Part shown: positions 4,670 through 10,180 of the stretch, piece after piece
Numbering within the stretch: the stretch's first letter is position 1
Layout: every line of letters starts with the position of its first letter
Assembly: GCA_038040445.1 (NCBI GenBank)
Contig: JBBPIG010000019.1
Coordinates: 1 to 64,000, forward strand
DNA from: Acidobacteriota bacterium
GTDB taxonomy: Bacteria > Acidobacteriota > Blastocatellia > UBA7656
DNA length: 64,000 nt
Reading direction: 5' to 3'
Translations under genes and position numbers: made by a program
Notes under the pieces: model-generated
Databases searched by the model: none
Told to the model about the DNA's origin: nothing
What the model saw: the letters and a program-made list of their open reading frames with translations, nothing else

Positions 4670-5797
4670 CTAGATAGAGGGGGTTCTCTGCACATAGACC
4701 TTGAGAAACTTCAAGTAGGACGTTCCGTTCCAAAAGATCCTCGTCTCGAGATACCCGAAACACGGATTATCAAAATCAACGGAGAACCACTGCCATTGGT
4801 TGGGTGCAGTGAACTCATTACGCCGCACCTGCCGTTGCGCGAGAACGGTGGTGCCGAACGCCGTCACGACATCGAGAGTCACGACAAAATCAGCGCCGGC
4901 GTTGTTATCAATTGACAGAAGAAACCAGCCAGTGTGGTGTCCTTGTCCAAAACTGCCATCGTAAGGACCATATGACATCCAGCCGGCAGAATCCGCGACG
5001 GGGTTGGCGGACCAGGCGTCCCCTTCCTGGCGGCCCATCAGGTGGCCCAGGCTTGGGCTTGTCGCGTTCCACAGCTTCACGCTTGAGTAGCCCGCGCCGC
5101 AGCCGCTTGCGGGTGCTTTCTCAACATACAGTCGGCTGAACTTTATATTACTATTTCCTTGCCAGTAGATTCTGGCTTCCAGGTATCCGAAACATGGGTC
5201 GTCAAACTCAACGGAAAACCACTGCGATTGGTTGGGCCAGACAAAGTCGGTGCGCCGTACGTCCCGATGACCGAGAAGAATCGTGCCAAAGCCGGTCACT
5301 GCGTCCAGAGATGCAACGATATTACTGTCGGCCGTGACATTGTCGATCGACAGCAGGAACCAAGCCCTATGATGTCCTTGCCCAAAAGTAGTATCGTAGG
5401 GACCGTATGAGAGCCAGCCAGCCGGATCAACGCCGACATTGCCAGACCAAGCGCTCCCGTCGACATGCCCGGTTAGATGGCCAAGGCTCGGGCTAGATCC
5501 ATTCCAAAACTTCAGACCGTAATAACCGTCGCCGCACCCTGACTCCTCCGTGGCCACGAGTCTGCCACCGGCATAGACGTATTCCTTTGACGGGTTGTTT
5601 GCATTGAGGCTTTGTATTGATACCGTCCCACCTTTCTTCCCCTTTTGCCTGAGCGAAGAATCGAATGCGCCAGAGTTAGCCAGCATAGTCAAGGCTGCAA
5701 TCAAGCTCAGCACGAAGGCAACGGGAATGATGACTTGGGGCCTGACGCGCGTCAGTAAACCTGACCGCTTTTGCTGGCTGGTTTTCTTTCCTGACAT
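4670..5797 (-). CDS. Exported protein with two tandem about 140-residue domains
   Basis: A 375-residue protein with a basic N-terminus and a transmembrane or signal segment at about residues 22-42. The stretch SKEYVYAGGRLVATEE (about 70-85) resembles the end of an RHS/YD module and recurs in secreted proteins of Blastocatellia. Two clearly homologous domains follow, about residues 87-227 and 232-371. Each begins GCGxGY, contains SPSLGHL, YGPYDxxFGQGHH, WFLLSIDN and QWFSVxFDxPCFGYLExRI, and ends with KFxxxYV. The domains look like beta-sandwich binding modules with a conserved pair of cysteines. The gene heads the minus-strand locus that leads to the RHS giant. A surface-binding role is inferred. 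Confidence 0.8.
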   Translation of the reverse strand: MSGKKTSQQKRSGLLTRVRPQVIIPVAFVLSLIAALTMLANSGAFDSSLRQKGKKGGTVSIQSLNANNPSKEYVYAGGRLVATEESGCGDGYYGLKFWNGSSPSLGHLTGHVDGSAWSGNVGVDPAGWLSYGPYDTTFGQGHHRAWFLLSIDNVTADSNIVASLDAVTGFGTILLGHRDVRRTDFVWPNQSQWFSVEFDDPCFGYLEARIYWQGNSNIKFSRLYVEKAPASGCGAGYSSVKLWNATSPSLGHLMGRQEGDAWSANPVADSAGWMSYGPYDGSFGQGHHTGWFLLSIDNNAGADFVVTLDVVTAFGTTVLAQRQVRRNEFTAPNQWQWFSVDFDNPCFGYLETRIFWNGTSYLKFLKVYVQRTPSI

Positions 5798-6051: not shown

Positions 6052-6495
6052 TCACCTGCTGCGTTGAGCGGCCCGCTTGATCTTCCCGAACTCATTCTTG
6101 TACAACCGTTCAGCTTCGCTAGGATCAGGCTGGTATTCGAAGGCGAACTCAAGAAACCGAGTGATCGTCAGACTGGTCGCGTATATGCCTTCAGCGCCCT
6201 GCCCGATCGCGGCGATGATCGCCTCGATGATGCTGTCAATCGGCCTGCATTTTTCTTCGTCGGCTATTTGCTTGATGAGGCGCAGATTCAGTTCGCGACT
6301 CTTTGTTTTGTCTTTGACGATAGCCTTGACCGCTTCCCCAATGACCAACAAGCACAGCGCGGCGTCGTGAGCCTCACCGATTCGCAGGTTGAGAATCAGG
6401 TCCCGGATTGTGGTTTCAGGGACAACGTAGGGCTCAGAGTATTTCTCTTCTAACGATTCGCTTATTGCTCTTTTGCTTGGTTCTTTCATACTCAT
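6052..6495 (-). CDS. Hypothetical helical protein sharing an N-terminus with the AraC gene
   Basis: From ATG 6495 the protein has 147 residues. It is soluble and mainly helical by appearance, with alternating hydrophobic and charged residues (LNLRLIKQIADEE, IDSIIEAIIAAIGQGAEG). No family was recognised. The first 27 or so residues (MSMKEPSKRAISESLEEKY, then VVPE) closely match those of the AraC-type protein at 8694 (MSIKEVSKRASGESLKGKN, then VVPE), after which the two diverge completely. The upstream DNA is also shared. The start at 6495 is chosen over an upstream ATG at 6534 because it aligns with the AraC start and has GGAG about 8 nt ahead. It ends a run of minus-strand regulatory genes. 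Confidence 0.65.
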   Translation of the reverse strand: MSMKEPSKRAISESLEEKYSEPYVVPETTIRDLILNLRIGEAHDAALCLLVIGEAVKAIVKDKTKSRELNLRLIKQIADEEKCRPIDSIIEAIIAAIGQGAEGIYATSLTITRFLEFAFEYQPDPSEAERLYKNEFGKIKRAAQRSR

Positions 6496-6600
6496 GGCCG
6501 TTCTCCGGCACAGAGGCGCGTTTAGGGCAGACAAATCCTAATGCACGCCGATGTGCGGTTGGGCAAGGTGGGTCATCATTCAGAGTGGCCGCCCACTCGT
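6496..6600 (-). promoter_or_regulatory. Conserved leader, copy A (homologous to 8695-8799)
   Basis: Upstream of ATG 6495 lie blocks identical or nearly identical to the leader of the AraC gene: GGATTTGTCTGCC, GACCCACCTTGCCC, and CCGGAGA near the start codon. The distal block can fold: GTGGG at 6568-6572 pairs with CCCAC at 6592-6596, and a second small stem GCAC/GTGC with a 6-base loop lies nearer the gene. Copy B keeps both pairings with changed bases. It could be a duplicated promoter, a regulatory leader RNA, or simply the relic of a recent duplication. Confidence 0.55.
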
Positions 6601-6711
6601 CAGTGGGTGTTTCTTCAGATTGTTGACAACTCACACTGCTGCCCGCCGAGGACTGCCCGCACTAACCCGCTTTCGATCCATAGCTCGATAGTCCTTTGTG
6701 AGACATCTCCC

Positions 6712-7305
6712 TTAACAGGCATTGATCGAGCCTGCCGCACGTGTAGCGGCACGAAGGCCGAACCTACTACGAACAGTGTCAACGGCCACGTCCGTCTGGC
6801 GCGCTTGGGCATACTTGATGCGTCTCCACGCCGCCGCCTCCACCACCCACACTGCCTGTTTGGAAACGCCCAGGATTGCCGCAACGTCTGGTCCTGAGCG
6901 CACCGCGCCGCCCTTGAGTCCCAGCCGCAACGCCATTACCTCCTGCTGGCGCGTAGTAAGCAAGTGCAGATGCGCGCGAACCAACTCTCTCGCCTCCTTC
7001 TTTCTTTCCTGGGCGGTCCGTCGGCTTTCCTGGGCAGCATGCCGTCTCGCCAGAACCCTCTCGTTCAGTGGCCTGCATATTCGACAGTGTACGATGCCTG
7101 CGGCGCTTGGCAGGCCGCACACAACGCATTGGCCGAGCGATCTGCGTTTTGCTGTACGCTCTTTAGCCCTCCTCCTGAGGTTCGCGAGGCATTTGACGCA
7201 TTGAGTACGCTCCGCGACTGGCGGAGCTTTTCCGCACCCAACGCAAACCCCTGCGGCCTTACGCTGGAGGCGCTGCAGGCGTCGTCGCTCAATTCCCCTG
7301 GACAT
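6712..7305 (-). CDS. Zinc-ribbon protein with sigma-70 region 4-like helix-turn-helix
   Basis: About 197 residues. Two CxxC...CxxC knuckles are visible: C21/C24 with C36/C39 (CVGCGKAPPV...CVKC) and C60/C63 with C74/C77 (CVVCGLPSAAG...CRIC), separated by a basic linker. A basic helical stretch (about 85-113) leads to LTTRQQEVMALRLGL, then a helix-turn-helix (VAAILGVSKQAVWVVEAAAWRRI, about 141-163) of the sigma-70 region 4 or LuxR type. There is no region 2, so it cannot be a complete sigma factor. It is more likely a DNA-binding regulator. It may start at ATG 7305 or the adjacent GTG 7308. It lies among other regulators on the same strand. Target and zinc binding are inferred. Confidence 0.7.
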   Translation of the reverse strand: MSRGIERRRLQRLQRKAAGVCVGCGKAPPVAERTQCVKCLANLRRRAKERTAKRRSLGQCVVCGLPSAAGIVHCRICRPLNERVLARRHAAQESRRTAQERKKEARELVRAHLHLLTTRQQEVMALRLGLKGGAVRSGPDVAAILGVSKQAVWVVEAAAWRRIKYAQARQTDVAVDTVRSRFGLRAATRAAGSINAC

Positions 7306-7435
7306 CACCCGATTCCAGTTGGCTGGGCTTTAGCGGTGTGTTCATAATCTCCCTGTGAGCTCCGCGTCTGCCTATCAATACTGTTACCTCATATCCGGCT
7401 CTCACCCACACCATTGCGAGCACCTCTGGTCTGGC

Positions 7436-7795
7436 TTACGGGACCTGCTTGTCGACAGCCCAAACTAAAGCATTTGGGTTAACAGGCTTGAGCAAAACTT
7501 CGTCGGCACCCGCTGCTTTTGCCTGATCGGTCACCTCGCCGTTGCCAGTTACCATCACTACAGCAGTCATCATTCGGTGCTCGAGCGACCTGATAAATCT
7601 GACGAGCTTTACTCCGTCTGTTCCGGGCACGTTGTAGCTGAGCAGAACCGCGTCATATGGCTCGCTTCCAGCCAGTCGCCCCATCGCGCAGTCTCGATCA
7701 CCGCAGGTGGCGATAGTCCAGCCGCGTTGCTCGAAGATCTCCGCGAACAATCTTGCAAGCGTGACTGACCCGTCTATTATCAACATTGATTTCAT
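7436..7795 (-). CDS. Atypical response-regulator receiver domain lacking the phosphoacceptor Asp
   Basis: A single-domain CheY-like protein of 119 residues: beta-1 MLIIDG, the beta-3 segment YDAVLLSYNVPGTDGV, the conserved Thr in VVMVTG (T83) and the conserved Lys in LLKPVNP (K103). In ordinary receivers the motif reads LLDxxMPGxDG. Here serine 53 stands where the phosphorylated aspartate should be, and only one acidic residue (D8) remains of the usual metal-binding pair. It therefore probably works as a phosphorylation-independent pseudo-receiver through protein contacts. There is no clear ribosome site, and a terminator-like hairpin lies only about 25 nt upstream of ATG 7795. No histidine kinase is adjacent. 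Confidence 0.8.
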   Translation of the reverse strand: MKSMLIIDGSVTLARLFAEIFEQRGWTIATCGDRDCAMGRLAGSEPYDAVLLSYNVPGTDGVKLVRFIRSLEHRMMTAVVMVTGNGEVTDQAKAAGADEVLLKPVNPNALVWAVDKQVP

Positions 7796-7820
7796 AGGGC
7801 GAAGGGACTATTATGCGGGG

Positions 7821-7892
7821 AAAAAAAGAGAGGGAACGCCACGCGGTTCGGATTTCCTGGGTGTTAGTCCTCGCCGCGAGGCGTACCCTCTC
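7821..7892 (-). terminator. Intrinsic terminator or attenuator just upstream of the receiver gene
   Basis: Read on the minus strand, GAGAGGG (7892-7886) pairs with CCCTCTC (7834-7828). Inner pairs CGC/GCG and GCGG/CCGC are separated by small internal loops, and seven T residues follow at 7827-7821. The receiver start codon follows 25 nt later. It could end the AraC transcript or act as an attenuator for the receiver gene. Confidence 0.6.
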
Positions 7893-7920
7893 TAGCCGCT
7901 AAAGGAGAAACGGTAATCTC

Positions 7921-7956
7921 TGGTGCGCGCGCTCGCAGCCCTGAGCGTGCGCACCA
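7921..7956. repeat. Inverted repeat, 14-bp arms
   Basis: TGGTGCGCGCGCTC (7921-7934) and GAGCGTGCGCACCA (7943-7956) form a stem with one wobble pair and an 8-base loop. No T-run follows on either strand, so it is a hairpin or a protein-binding palindrome and not an obvious terminator. The surrounding gap 7796-8247 (about 450 bases) holds this, the terminator at 7821-7892, and no gene I can support. Confidence 0.5.
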
Positions 7957-8247
7957 ATTTCAGTTTCAGCCATCCTGTCGACCAGTTGACAACCTGCCTA
8001 ACAACAGACAGCAAAGGCGATTCTCGAAGCTCGGTATTAAATCAGCCCGACGGCGAAGCCAACGCCACCGCAAGCGGGACAAATCCCCCACCGCCCGCGG
8101 CTCATTGATGAAGGGCTGCGGTAAATAGGACTCAACTGCCTTTTTCGAGAGATTGTAAGGGCTCGAACAAAATCACTAAGAGATCGAAAGTATCCCATGA
8201 CACCTTGTCTAGTACAACAAGAAAAGCGTAGTAAATATTCCTATTTG

Positions 8248-8694
8248 CTACACGATCTTACGATTCGTTTGCGCGAGATGACTGTTGGGGGCGCGCTCTC
8301 TGTACTCGGAGGGTGCGAGATCAAAGTATCTTCTGAAGTGGCGCACAAAGTTGCTCCTATGGTCGTAGCCTACCTGCGCCATGATCTGCTTAATGCTCAG
8401 TAGACTGGTTACTAGAAGCTGACGGGCTGTTTCCATTTTGAGTCTTATTAGATATTCCCCAGGCGGGAGTTTGGTTTGGCACTTGAAAAGATAGGAAAGG
8501 TGAGACCGGGAAAGATTTGCTACGCCGGCCAATTCGGTTAAAGGAATACTTCGATGAAGATTGGTATTCATGAAGTCGATCACAATCTGGACTCTTCGAT
8601 TGCGGATCGCGCTTTCGGGGACAACAAGCTGGGGAGGGTTCTTTCCTTTTAGCGATTCACCACTTGCTCTTTTGCTCACTTCTTTTATACTCAT
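8248..8694 (-). CDS. AraC-family transcriptional regulator (DNA-binding domain only)
   Basis: A 148-residue protein. After a non-conserved leader (about residues 1-30) comes an AraC/XylS domain with two helix-turn-helices: IPLTELAGVANLSRSHLSYL and, after the linking helix (LKMETARQLLVTS), LSIKQIMAQVGYDHRSNFVR followed by HFRRYFDLAPSEYRER. There is no sensory or dimerisation domain, so it resembles short SoxS/MarA-like regulators, whose activity usually follows their level. The N-terminal leader and the upstream DNA are duplicated at the gene starting 6495. Start ATG 8694 has GGAGAG about 6 nt upstream. Its targets are unknown. Confidence 0.85.
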   Translation of the reverse strand: MSIKEVSKRASGESLKGKNPPQLVVPESAIRNRRVQIVIDFMNTNLHRSIPLTELAGVANLSRSHLSYLFKCQTKLPPGEYLIRLKMETARQLLVTSLLSIKQIMAQVGYDHRSNFVRHFRRYFDLAPSEYRERAPNSHLAQTNRKIV

Positions 8695-8799
8695 ACACGC
8701 TCTCCGGCGCGCGAAGGTGTGCTAAGGCAGACAAATCCCGACACACCAACGTGCGTAAAAGGGGCAAGGTGGGTCGTCACCCCAAGTGGCGACCCGCTC
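8695..8799 (-). promoter_or_regulatory. Conserved leader, copy B (homologous to 6496-6600)
   Basis: It shares GGATTTGTCTGCC, GACCCACCTTGCCCC and CCGGAGAG with copy A at matching distances from the start codon. The distal part folds well: GGGTCGTCAC (8771-8780) pairs with GTGGCGACCC (8786-8795) around a 5-base loop, with one wobble pair. A short stem GCAC/GTGT with a 6-base loop lies nearer the gene. Regulatory function is inferred from conservation between two unrelated genes. Confidence 0.55.
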
Positions 8800-8838
8800 C
8801 GCGCAATTATTGATCGATTAGATATTTGGTGATTGTTT

Positions 8839-9795
8839 TCAGAAGCGGGCGGGTGGCGCGCGAGGCCCGATGCAGAACAGCACCCGGTCAAGGATGCTTA
8901 TTGCGGTGAGAGCAGTTATTGCTATTGCTGGAATCGGAATTATCGATCTTTGAAAAGAAGTTTTATCGCTCGCGAGCCAATTGAGGGCGAGTGCCGTCGA
9001 CGTCTTGGTTTGGCGCTGCGGTCGAACTTGTGGTGAAGATTCAGCCTCAAGAGATTGATTGACGGCGACGATTGATGGAGTAGCAGCCGTGCGCTTCGCC
9101 TCAAGCTCTTGGCGAGTTTGAGCCCATTCTGGATATGCAGAAGCGAACGGATATGCGAGAGCGATTTTGCAAGCATCTTCTGCTTCAGCGATACGGCCCA
9201 ATTCTCCGAAGTCAACCGCTAGTTCGTTTTGATAGAAGTAGAAGTAAAGCGGGTTCTGTCGACCTACGATCTGCACAAGCGGCCAGATGCTTTCGAGGAG
9301 GGCTAAGGCACCTTTATGATCTTCATTGAGGCTCTTGATAGTGGCGATTTCCAGACGCGCGAGCAGCGTAGTCTGCAAACCGTGTGCATTTCTGTCCGAT
9401 GCCGCTCGCAGCGCTTCAAGCTGAAACCTCAATGCTTCATCAAGCTGACCTTTGTCGTGGAGATTTGTTCCCAGAGTCTGAATTGCCCGCGCCCGGTAAG
9501 CAATCGGCGCATTGTCGACAACCATTTCGAGCAAGGTCTCGGCCTCGTCTCGTTGGCCTCTTCGATTTATGGCGAGAGCGTGATAGTAAAGACCCACTTG
9601 CCGCGCTGCATCTATCGGCAGGTTCATCAGTACGCCGCTTATCTCTTTAAGCGCATCTGGATCACGCCGGCTATAGGCTTGCTCTGCAAAATGAATCAAT
9701 GCATTGGTGAGGTTGAGAAATGCCTCTTGTGTATGGACGGTCTGAGCCAAACGGCTCGAAACAATATGCTGAATCAATCCACCATGGCTGACCAC
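8839..9795 (-). CDS. TPR-type helical repeat protein
   Basis: About 318 residues from GTG 9795. The N-terminal half consists of paired helices typical of tetratricopeptide repeats (AFLNLTNALIHFAEQAYSRR, QVGLYYHALAINRRGQRDEA, RARAIQTLGTNLHDKGQLDE, FYFYQNELAVDFGELGRIAE). A proline/serine-rich linker follows, and a hydrophobic segment near the C-terminus (about IIPIPAIAITALTAIS) may be a membrane anchor. TPR proteins act as scaffolds; no partner is evident. GTG 9795 is preferred over ATG 9870 because the longer form would overlap the divergent gene and its ribosome site. No strong ribosome site precedes either start. Confidence 0.7.
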   Translation of the reverse strand: MVSHGGLIQHIVSSRLAQTVHTQEAFLNLTNALIHFAEQAYSRRDPDALKEISGVLMNLPIDAARQVGLYYHALAINRRGQRDEAETLLEMVVDNAPIAYRARAIQTLGTNLHDKGQLDEALRFQLEALRAASDRNAHGLQTTLLARLEIATIKSLNEDHKGALALLESIWPLVQIVGRQNPLYFYFYQNELAVDFGELGRIAEAEDACKIALAYPFASAYPEWAQTRQELEAKRTAATPSIVAVNQSLEAESSPQVRPQRQTKTSTALALNWLASDKTSFQRSIIPIPAIAITALTAISILDRVLFCIGPRAPPARF

Positions 9796-9835
9796 GATTT
9801 CTGAGTCAGTGAATCCGCTACTGGAGGAACAACCC

Positions 9836-10180
9836 GTGAGAAAACGACTTGTTATTGCGGCTGCCTGCATCTTAGCTCTTCCGCTTTTCTTTTCCCCTTC
9901 TCACAACGAGAAGCTGACCACCACAACTGCTTTTTCTACAGTTGCGTTGGCTGGCCACACAAGTGCCGGCAATTGGTGCGAATGCGGCGCTCCTGGCTGC
10001 ATCTGCGACCCTGGCGAAGTTCGCGGCCAGAGTGTCACACCGGTGTCTGATCGGAATGGTCGATCTTTGAATCAAGGCACCACCTCGCCAAGTGCAGACC
10101 GGAATTCTCGGTTTGACTTCGGCTCAAGCGCGTTGATGCTCGCGCTTGCTTTCTTCCTGTGGACTAGATTGCGAGCCTAA
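9836..10180 (+). CDS. Small exported protein with CECG/CICD cysteine motif and C-terminal anchor
   Basis: About 114 residues from GTG 9836, which has GGAGG 8 nt upstream; an earlier in-frame GTG (9809) lacks such a site. The signal peptide is clear (RKRLVIAAACILALPLFF). A short cysteine cluster follows, WCECGAPGCICDPGE (four Cys within 10 residues), then a Ser/Asn-rich stretch and a C-terminal hydrophobic helix ending in arginines (SSALMLALAFFLWTRLR), as in membrane-retained surface proteins. It is divergent from the TPR gene with about 40 bp between start codons. The cysteine cluster could bind a metal or form disulfides. The function is unknown. Confidence 0.65.
   Translation: MRKRLVIAAACILALPLFFSPSHNEKLTTTTAFSTVALAGHTSAGNWCECGAPGCICDPGEVRGQSVTPVSDRNGRSLNQGTTSPSADRNSRFDFGSSALMLALAFFLWTRLRA

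Follow-up and report, generated by a model that had tools for sequence, protein, structure and literature searches.

A covarying element behind TPR genes in an Acidobacteriota family: a candidate antisense small-RNA gene overlapping the start of unlike proteins

The two copies and their surroundings

The stretch of DNA considered here (the window: 64,000 nucleotides (nt) of contig JBBPIG010000019.1, assembly GCA_038040445.1, from an Acidobacteriota bacterium of the lineage Blastocatellia; UBA7656) contains two genes, starting at ATG 6495 and ATG 8694, that share a leader and an N-terminal coding segment and continue into different proteins. This duplication had been pointed out in a first-pass annotation made from the sequence alone, and alignment bears it out: the leaders and the first ~33 codons are homologous, and both lie on the minus strand. 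The 105 bases preceding the two ATGs agree in 75 of 111 aligned columns, with an alignment score that was never reached in 2,000 mononucleotide shuffles; the exact matches are GACCCACCTTGCCC and GGATTTGTCTGCC, and over the first 33 codons the DNA identity is 68%. The same annotation was also right that the downstream parts differ, as can be seen in the features of the locus:

6052..6495, minus strand: all-helical protein behind copy 1, without Pfam match; AlphaFold mean predicted local distance difference test (pLDDT) 74
6465..6492, plus strand: putative antisense promoter of copy 1 (TTGCTC 6465-6470, 16 nt, CATACT 6487-6492; 5.4 bits)
6490..6600, plus strand: structured element, copy 1, an orphan with no adjoining TPR gene; RNA models E 3e-13 and 2e-11
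6590..6619, plus strand: terminator-like hairpin with the tail CGCCCACTCGTCAGTGGGTG TTTCTTCAGA, copy 1, antisense strand
8248..8694, minus strand: regulator behind copy 2, a short N-terminal part and an AraC-type helix-turn-helix (HTH) domain (PF12833, E 6e-23)
8664..8691, plus strand: putative antisense promoter of copy 2 (-35 TTGCTC 8664-8669, 16 nt, -10 TATACT 8686-8691)
8689..8803, plus strand: structured element, copy 2, read as an antisense RNA; RNA models R1/R2, E 1e-16 and 9e-18 per genome (the model match itself is on the minus strand)
~8708-8756 and 8771-8795, plus strand: hairpins HP2′ and HP1′ of copy 2, from covariation
8830..8839, plus strand: U-rich tract TGATTGTTTT at the TPR stop, a possible, weak 3′ end of the copy 2 RNA
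8839..9870, minus strand: TPR protein of 343 residues upstream of copy 2, with weak TPR Pfam hits; 25-member family A7
8851..8862, minus strand: RAPP codons near the TPR C-terminus (R337-A338-P339-P340), the preceding P336 being invariant as well
9836..10180, plus strand: divergent small secreted Cys-rich protein (CECGAPGCICDPGE), with homologues beside most TPR copies

A family of covarying copies

The annotation had counted two copies, and both are real, but there are more. When 98 genomes (the own genome and 97 relatives) were searched at the DNA level, only three copies were returned, all in the own genome, the third of them at C55; protein and RNA-model searches were needed. A search guided by the TPR gene added a fourth own-genome copy, behind the TPR gene of C2, and RNA-model searches of 58 genomes, with a model built from 23 copies and repeated with a second one, brought the number of credible copies to 26: 4 in the own genome, 9 in a second (G003) and 13 in a third (G006). 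The taxonomic range is thus narrow, all three genomes belonging to a single family, and the copies are of common ancestry. Weaker model matches in three further genomes (G001, G002 and G015) were rejected, being palindromes or near-palindromes beside unrelated genes and not behind a TPR gene. No relative was found in viral contigs, and the window and four loci, searched with the Rfam covariance models, gave nothing even at E 0.5.

The position of the element is almost invariable, for 25 of the 26 copies lie directly downstream of a TPR gene, copy 1 being the orphan; there the element, ~110 nt long, lies between the stop of the TPR gene and the ATG of the regulator, at a fixed spacing from the start codon. 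Copy 2 and the copy at C55 each lie directly behind a TPR gene that has the divergent small secreted protein beside it. What follows the element, in contrast, is of at least four kinds: CRP-like (HTH_Crp_2), AraC-type (HTH_18) and HTH_17 proteins, and an all-helical protein without family, which in copy 1 is related to the proteins behind the element at C2 and in G006, and which gave no significant match in a fold search. Such unlike proteins behind one cassette imply that the cassette stays while the module behind it is exchanged. At C2 (L078 3424-3860) the helical protein is broken by a stop after 13 codons, and the RNA element and promoter remain.

Covariation supports the two hairpins, HP1 and HP2: 81.5% of the cells are paired, 17 of the 26 pairs have changes on both sides, and 52 cells carry double changes, against 20.8 +/- 3.3 after shuffling and at most 14 when the partner was slid. 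These figures come from an alignment fitted to the structure, and for a few copies the alignment of HP2 is imperfect. Because some copies had HP1 and HP2 out of register in the raw MAFFT alignment, RNAalifold recovered only 10 pairs from it; a hand-set structure with Infernal realignment improved the pairing. The earlier suggestion that the distal hairpin keeps its pairing through changed bases was thus correct, and a simple duplication limited to two copies, with changes that ignore pairing, is not what is observed. Comparison of the 26 copies shows, at the level of sequence, a conserved structured element whose nucleotide constraint extends over the first ~10 codons; together with the covariation and the variety of downstream proteins, this supports the notion of a regulatory cassette. 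One clade (L104 1530-1700, and also L102, L106 and L109) has an additional conserved hairpin, CCGTAA...TTACGG, which is placed between HP1 and the TPR stop and beyond which the antisense strand is T-rich.

The strand of the element and a putative promoter within the first codons

The interpretation that we favour, and regard as rather probable, is that the shared leader and N-terminal codons constitute a gene for a small RNA encoded opposite to the downstream open reading frame (ORF), and not the sense leader for which they had been taken; the opposite strand is the more likely one. The argument begins with the start codon. In all 22 copies of G003 and G006 the ORF begins with ATGATA, despite the differing proteins behind (CRP-like, helical or degenerate); ATGATT had been allowed beside ATGATA in the search for starts, and it was ATGATA that stood at the expected position of every locus. 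On the opposite strand ATGATA reads TATCAT, a putative -10 box in these 22 copies, with a TTG (-35) 17 nt upstream in most of them, and the own-genome start ATGAGTATA gives the antisense TATACT. The antisense promoter score averages 8.8 bits, compared with 3.2 (standard deviation 2.0) at ~130 starts of other long ORFs, none of which reaches the mean of the element copies.

On synonymous recoding with the protein fixed the mean falls from 8.8 to 5.6, and all 24 testable copies exceed their own recoded mean. In the 22 copies codon 2 is always ATA, which makes up 21% of Ile codons, and codon 9 is TAC, GAC or CAC in 21, never the T-ending partner, the two being used about evenly (~50%). In copy 2 the putative promoter lies inside codons 2-11 of the AraC ORF and scores 8.6 bits, a value that none of 300 synonymous recodings reaches; that of copy 1 is weak and perhaps decayed. 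It is thus well supported, by sequence comparison, that the first codons hold a putative sigma-70-type promoter pointing away from the ORF, its -10 in codons 1-2 or 2-3 and its -35 near codons 8-11. A promoter on the strand opposite the target and near its 5′ end, as expected of a cis-antisense RNA, is in this way found computationally, strong in G003 and G006 and weaker in the window copies.

Other signs lean in the same direction. Between the start codon and the TPR stop, a hairpin followed by a T-rich tract is found on the antisense strand at 19 of 26 loci and on the sense strand at 4 of 26; the antisense sites often end in TTGTTCTTTG close to the TPR stop, and the TGATTGTTTT tract of copy 2 is the counterpart of this hairpin and TTGTTCTTTG. 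Within the hairpins, A.C mismatches, which are G.U on the other strand, number 55, against 27 sense G.U; by clade, the antisense wobbles prevail in 10 of 14 groups, partly driven by one clade. The mean fold z-score is -3.6 for the antisense and -2.7 for the sense strand, and for copy 2 the values are -4.05 and -0.40. Wobbles and folding favour the antisense strand as a lean, not as proof.

Promoter scores, terminator-like sites, wobbles and fold z all lean antisense, and for this reason our best reading of the shared "N-terminal tag" is that it would be mostly promoter, and not the targeting signal suggested as one possibility in the annotation. In the two window copies 15 of the 33 codons encode different residues and only 4 carry synonymous changes, residues 1-20 of the copy 1 protein are disordered in the AlphaFold model, and the nucleotide-level constraint of the first codons in the 22 copies fits an antisense promoter instead.

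Several observations weigh against an antisense gene. Taken copy by copy, the synonymous test reaches significance (p of 0.05 or less) in only 7 of the 24 and, the copies being related, neither this test nor the codon counts are independent trials. The window copies are the weakest of the family for both promoter and terminator: a stricter consensus scan calls neither of their promoters (8.6 and 5.4 bits), and no terminator is called for copy 2. In two own-genome copies the spacer is of 19 nt. Lastly, folding is better on the sense strand for 9 of the 26 copies, and covariation alone names no strand.

The arrest motif, the proposed module and its alternatives

The TPR genes that precede the element have in common the way in which they end. 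All 25 terminate in PR[A/P]P[P/stop], that is PRAPP, PRAP-stop or PRPPP, after some 95 unconserved columns that follow the TPR part: P, R and P are invariant in 25 of 25 and A is present in 22, the fourth position of the motif is Pro in 14 (11 RAPP, 3 RPPP) and a stop codon in 11, so that RAPP or RAP-stop is found in 22 and RPPP in 3, and any tail past RAPP is free. All four motif codons vary synonymously, which points to selection on the peptide and not on the RNA. TPR paralogues are numerous in genomes of this bacterial family, and among 14 related TPR genes without the element not one has a RAPP-like motif anywhere; a scan for the TPR protein in named genomes gave as its only match a distant one in Bacteroidales. 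At two further loci of the own genome (L080 at C35 and L081 at C30) the TPR part and an AraC-type DNA-binding domain form one fusion protein, and both RAPP and the RNA element are absent.

Arrest at RAPP has been established experimentally elsewhere (PMC10951233, PMC12992588): the ribosome stalls with RAP in the P site (PMC10951233), RAP-stop is listed among collected motifs (PMC10987492), and RAPP-like motifs are otherwise avoided, are placed near C-termini and lie upstream of diverse genes (PMC12992588). From these likenesses we infer a ribosome arrest at the TPR motif. Nevertheless, RAPP by itself is no guarantee of arrest (PMC12992588), and the TPR proteins are longer than typical arrest ORFs: the small ORF with a localization signal, which is common but not obligatory for RAPP arrest, is replaced here by proteins of ~250-345 residues with no N-terminal signal by inspection. 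AlphaFold gave a poor model of the TPR protein by itself (pLDDT 53), and this model was left out of searches.

If we accept these premises, transcription, arrest and regulation could be joined in a sequence-based model of the module, which may be a new switch of two layers. The transcript would start inside the Shine-Dalgarno region of the regulator, run through HP2′ and then HP1′, and finish in a U-rich stretch close to the TPR stop; by layout, and provided that the predicted start holds, it would cover the ribosome-binding site of the target. An RNA complementary to the 5′ untranslated region (UTR) and Shine-Dalgarno of the regulator would be expected to be its cis-antisense repressor, comparable to SymR on symE (PMC4147584). 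The arrest at the TPR end, most likely dependent on the state of the TPR domain, by then outside the tunnel, would be the input that helps to decide whether the regulator is made, perhaps via Rho access or mRNA lifetime. Permutation tests (p 0.36, 0.80 and 0.88) did not support pairing of the TPR 3′ end with the hairpins, or of the HP2 3′ arm with the Shine-Dalgarno; hence an effect through Rho or mRNA lifetime, as proposed for CruR, seems more likely than exclusive hairpins of the SecM type, and the supposed link between arrest and RNA is the least certain step of the model.

The Cys-rich protein (9836-10180, plus strand) contains CECGxPxCICDPGE and ends in ...FFLWTRLRA, and the divergent pair that it forms with the TPR gene (8839-9870, minus strand) is repeated many times in the genomes of the family. 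The two could be a signalling pair, the secreted protein being a candidate only for the TPR signal. A complete multi-copy module, in which TPR would sense a ligand on the ribosome, arrest at RAPP and override an antisense RNA whose promoter would lie in the first codons of whichever regulator follows, with the Cys-rich protein supplying or processing the signal, is speculative and, taken as a whole, quite improbable.

The foremost alternative, unlikely but deserving attention, is a structured 5′ leader on the sense strand, riboswitch-like or a SecM-SecA-like attenuator combined with the TPR arrest, that controls translation of the regulator. It would readily explain the fixed spacing to the start codon, the strong sense covariation, the arrest motif upstream in 25 of 25 and the copies that fold better in sense; it does not explain a constraint within the coding region that fits an antisense promoter, nor terminator-like sites on the other strand, and the wobbles, the fold z, the failure of the alternative pairings and the lack of an Rfam riboswitch match all speak against it. 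The same antisense unit might instead act mainly in trans, as a multi-copy small RNA whose C/U-rich 5′ end targets other mRNAs, as could be imagined from the several diverged paralogues per genome, the anti-Shine-Dalgarno-like sequence of the predicted 5′ end and the orphan copy 1; this is distinctly unlikely, because 25 of the 26 copies stay between TPR gene and regulator, which favours a role in cis. That HP1 and HP2 are operators bound by proteins for autoregulation of the regulator is very improbable: HP1 is a near-perfect palindrome and the neighbours are DNA-binding proteins, but the arms change freely while complementarity is kept, those of HP2 are more than 20 bases apart, and AraC, CRP-like and non-HTH proteins all occur behind one and the same element. 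Finally, a functionless duplication or gene-fusion scar, an idea that was partly right in that the AraC part of copy 2, from residue 26 onward, is 68% identical to the AraC domain of the TPR-AraC fusion at C35, and to which the decayed C2 copy might be added, is scarcely credible in view of 26 covarying copies with conserved promoter and arrest motif in strict co-occurrence.

Elsewhere in the window, a stand-alone response-regulator receiver domain (PF00072; 7436-7795, minus strand) lies between copies 1 and 2; the minus-strand ORF 6712-7308 combines a sigma region 4-like HTH (LTTRQQEVMALRLGL...AAILGVSKQAV) with two pairs of the CxxC type, and the minus-strand protein 4670-5797 an internal tandem duplication (an 82-nt repeat at 4723 and 5155, 78% identical), neither with a Pfam match.

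The proposed antisense unit may be set beside known systems. SymR of E. coli is an antisense RNA encoded in cis to symE, whose Shine-Dalgarno and start codon it covers, and mutation of the SymR promoter raises the protein level (PMC4147584); the element RNA would cover the Shine-Dalgarno and 5′ UTR, with a predicted start just upstream of the ATG, and unlike the SymR/SymE pair it has diverse regulators, not a toxin, downstream, is preceded by a TPR gene with an arrest motif and has no Rfam match. The TPR genes resemble those of ApdA/ApdP/ApcA and the RQH family (PMC10951233, PMC10987492, PMC12992588) in that an ORF ahead of the putative target gene carries RAPP or RAP-stop close to its C-terminal end, past a stretch that varies, but here the carrier of the putative arrest is a ~300-residue TPR protein with no evident signal sequence, and the targets are transcription regulators. 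CruR of Bordetella similarly places a sensor part and a C-terminal RAPP in a gene ahead of the regulated gene, although it senses copper by CXXC; an effect on Rho access or mRNA lifetime is proposed for its arrest, and the portions of that report drawn on here describe no structured intergenic RNA or antisense gene (PMC9426467). In SecM-SecA, too, an arrest-type motif lies upstream of the regulated gene with hairpins between, the mutually exclusive pairing being the part unsupported for the element.

If true, this would add a new structured RNA family, an antisense promoter that dictates N-terminal residues of unrelated proteins, and a RAPP-type arrest motif at the end of a large TPR protein ahead of transcription regulators. 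It would make testable what RAPP arrest controls beyond protein export and metals, a question raised in PMC12992588, and whether a nascent soluble domain can be a sensor. It would also serve as a warning that N-terminal tags common to unrelated proteins can be signals at the level of the DNA.

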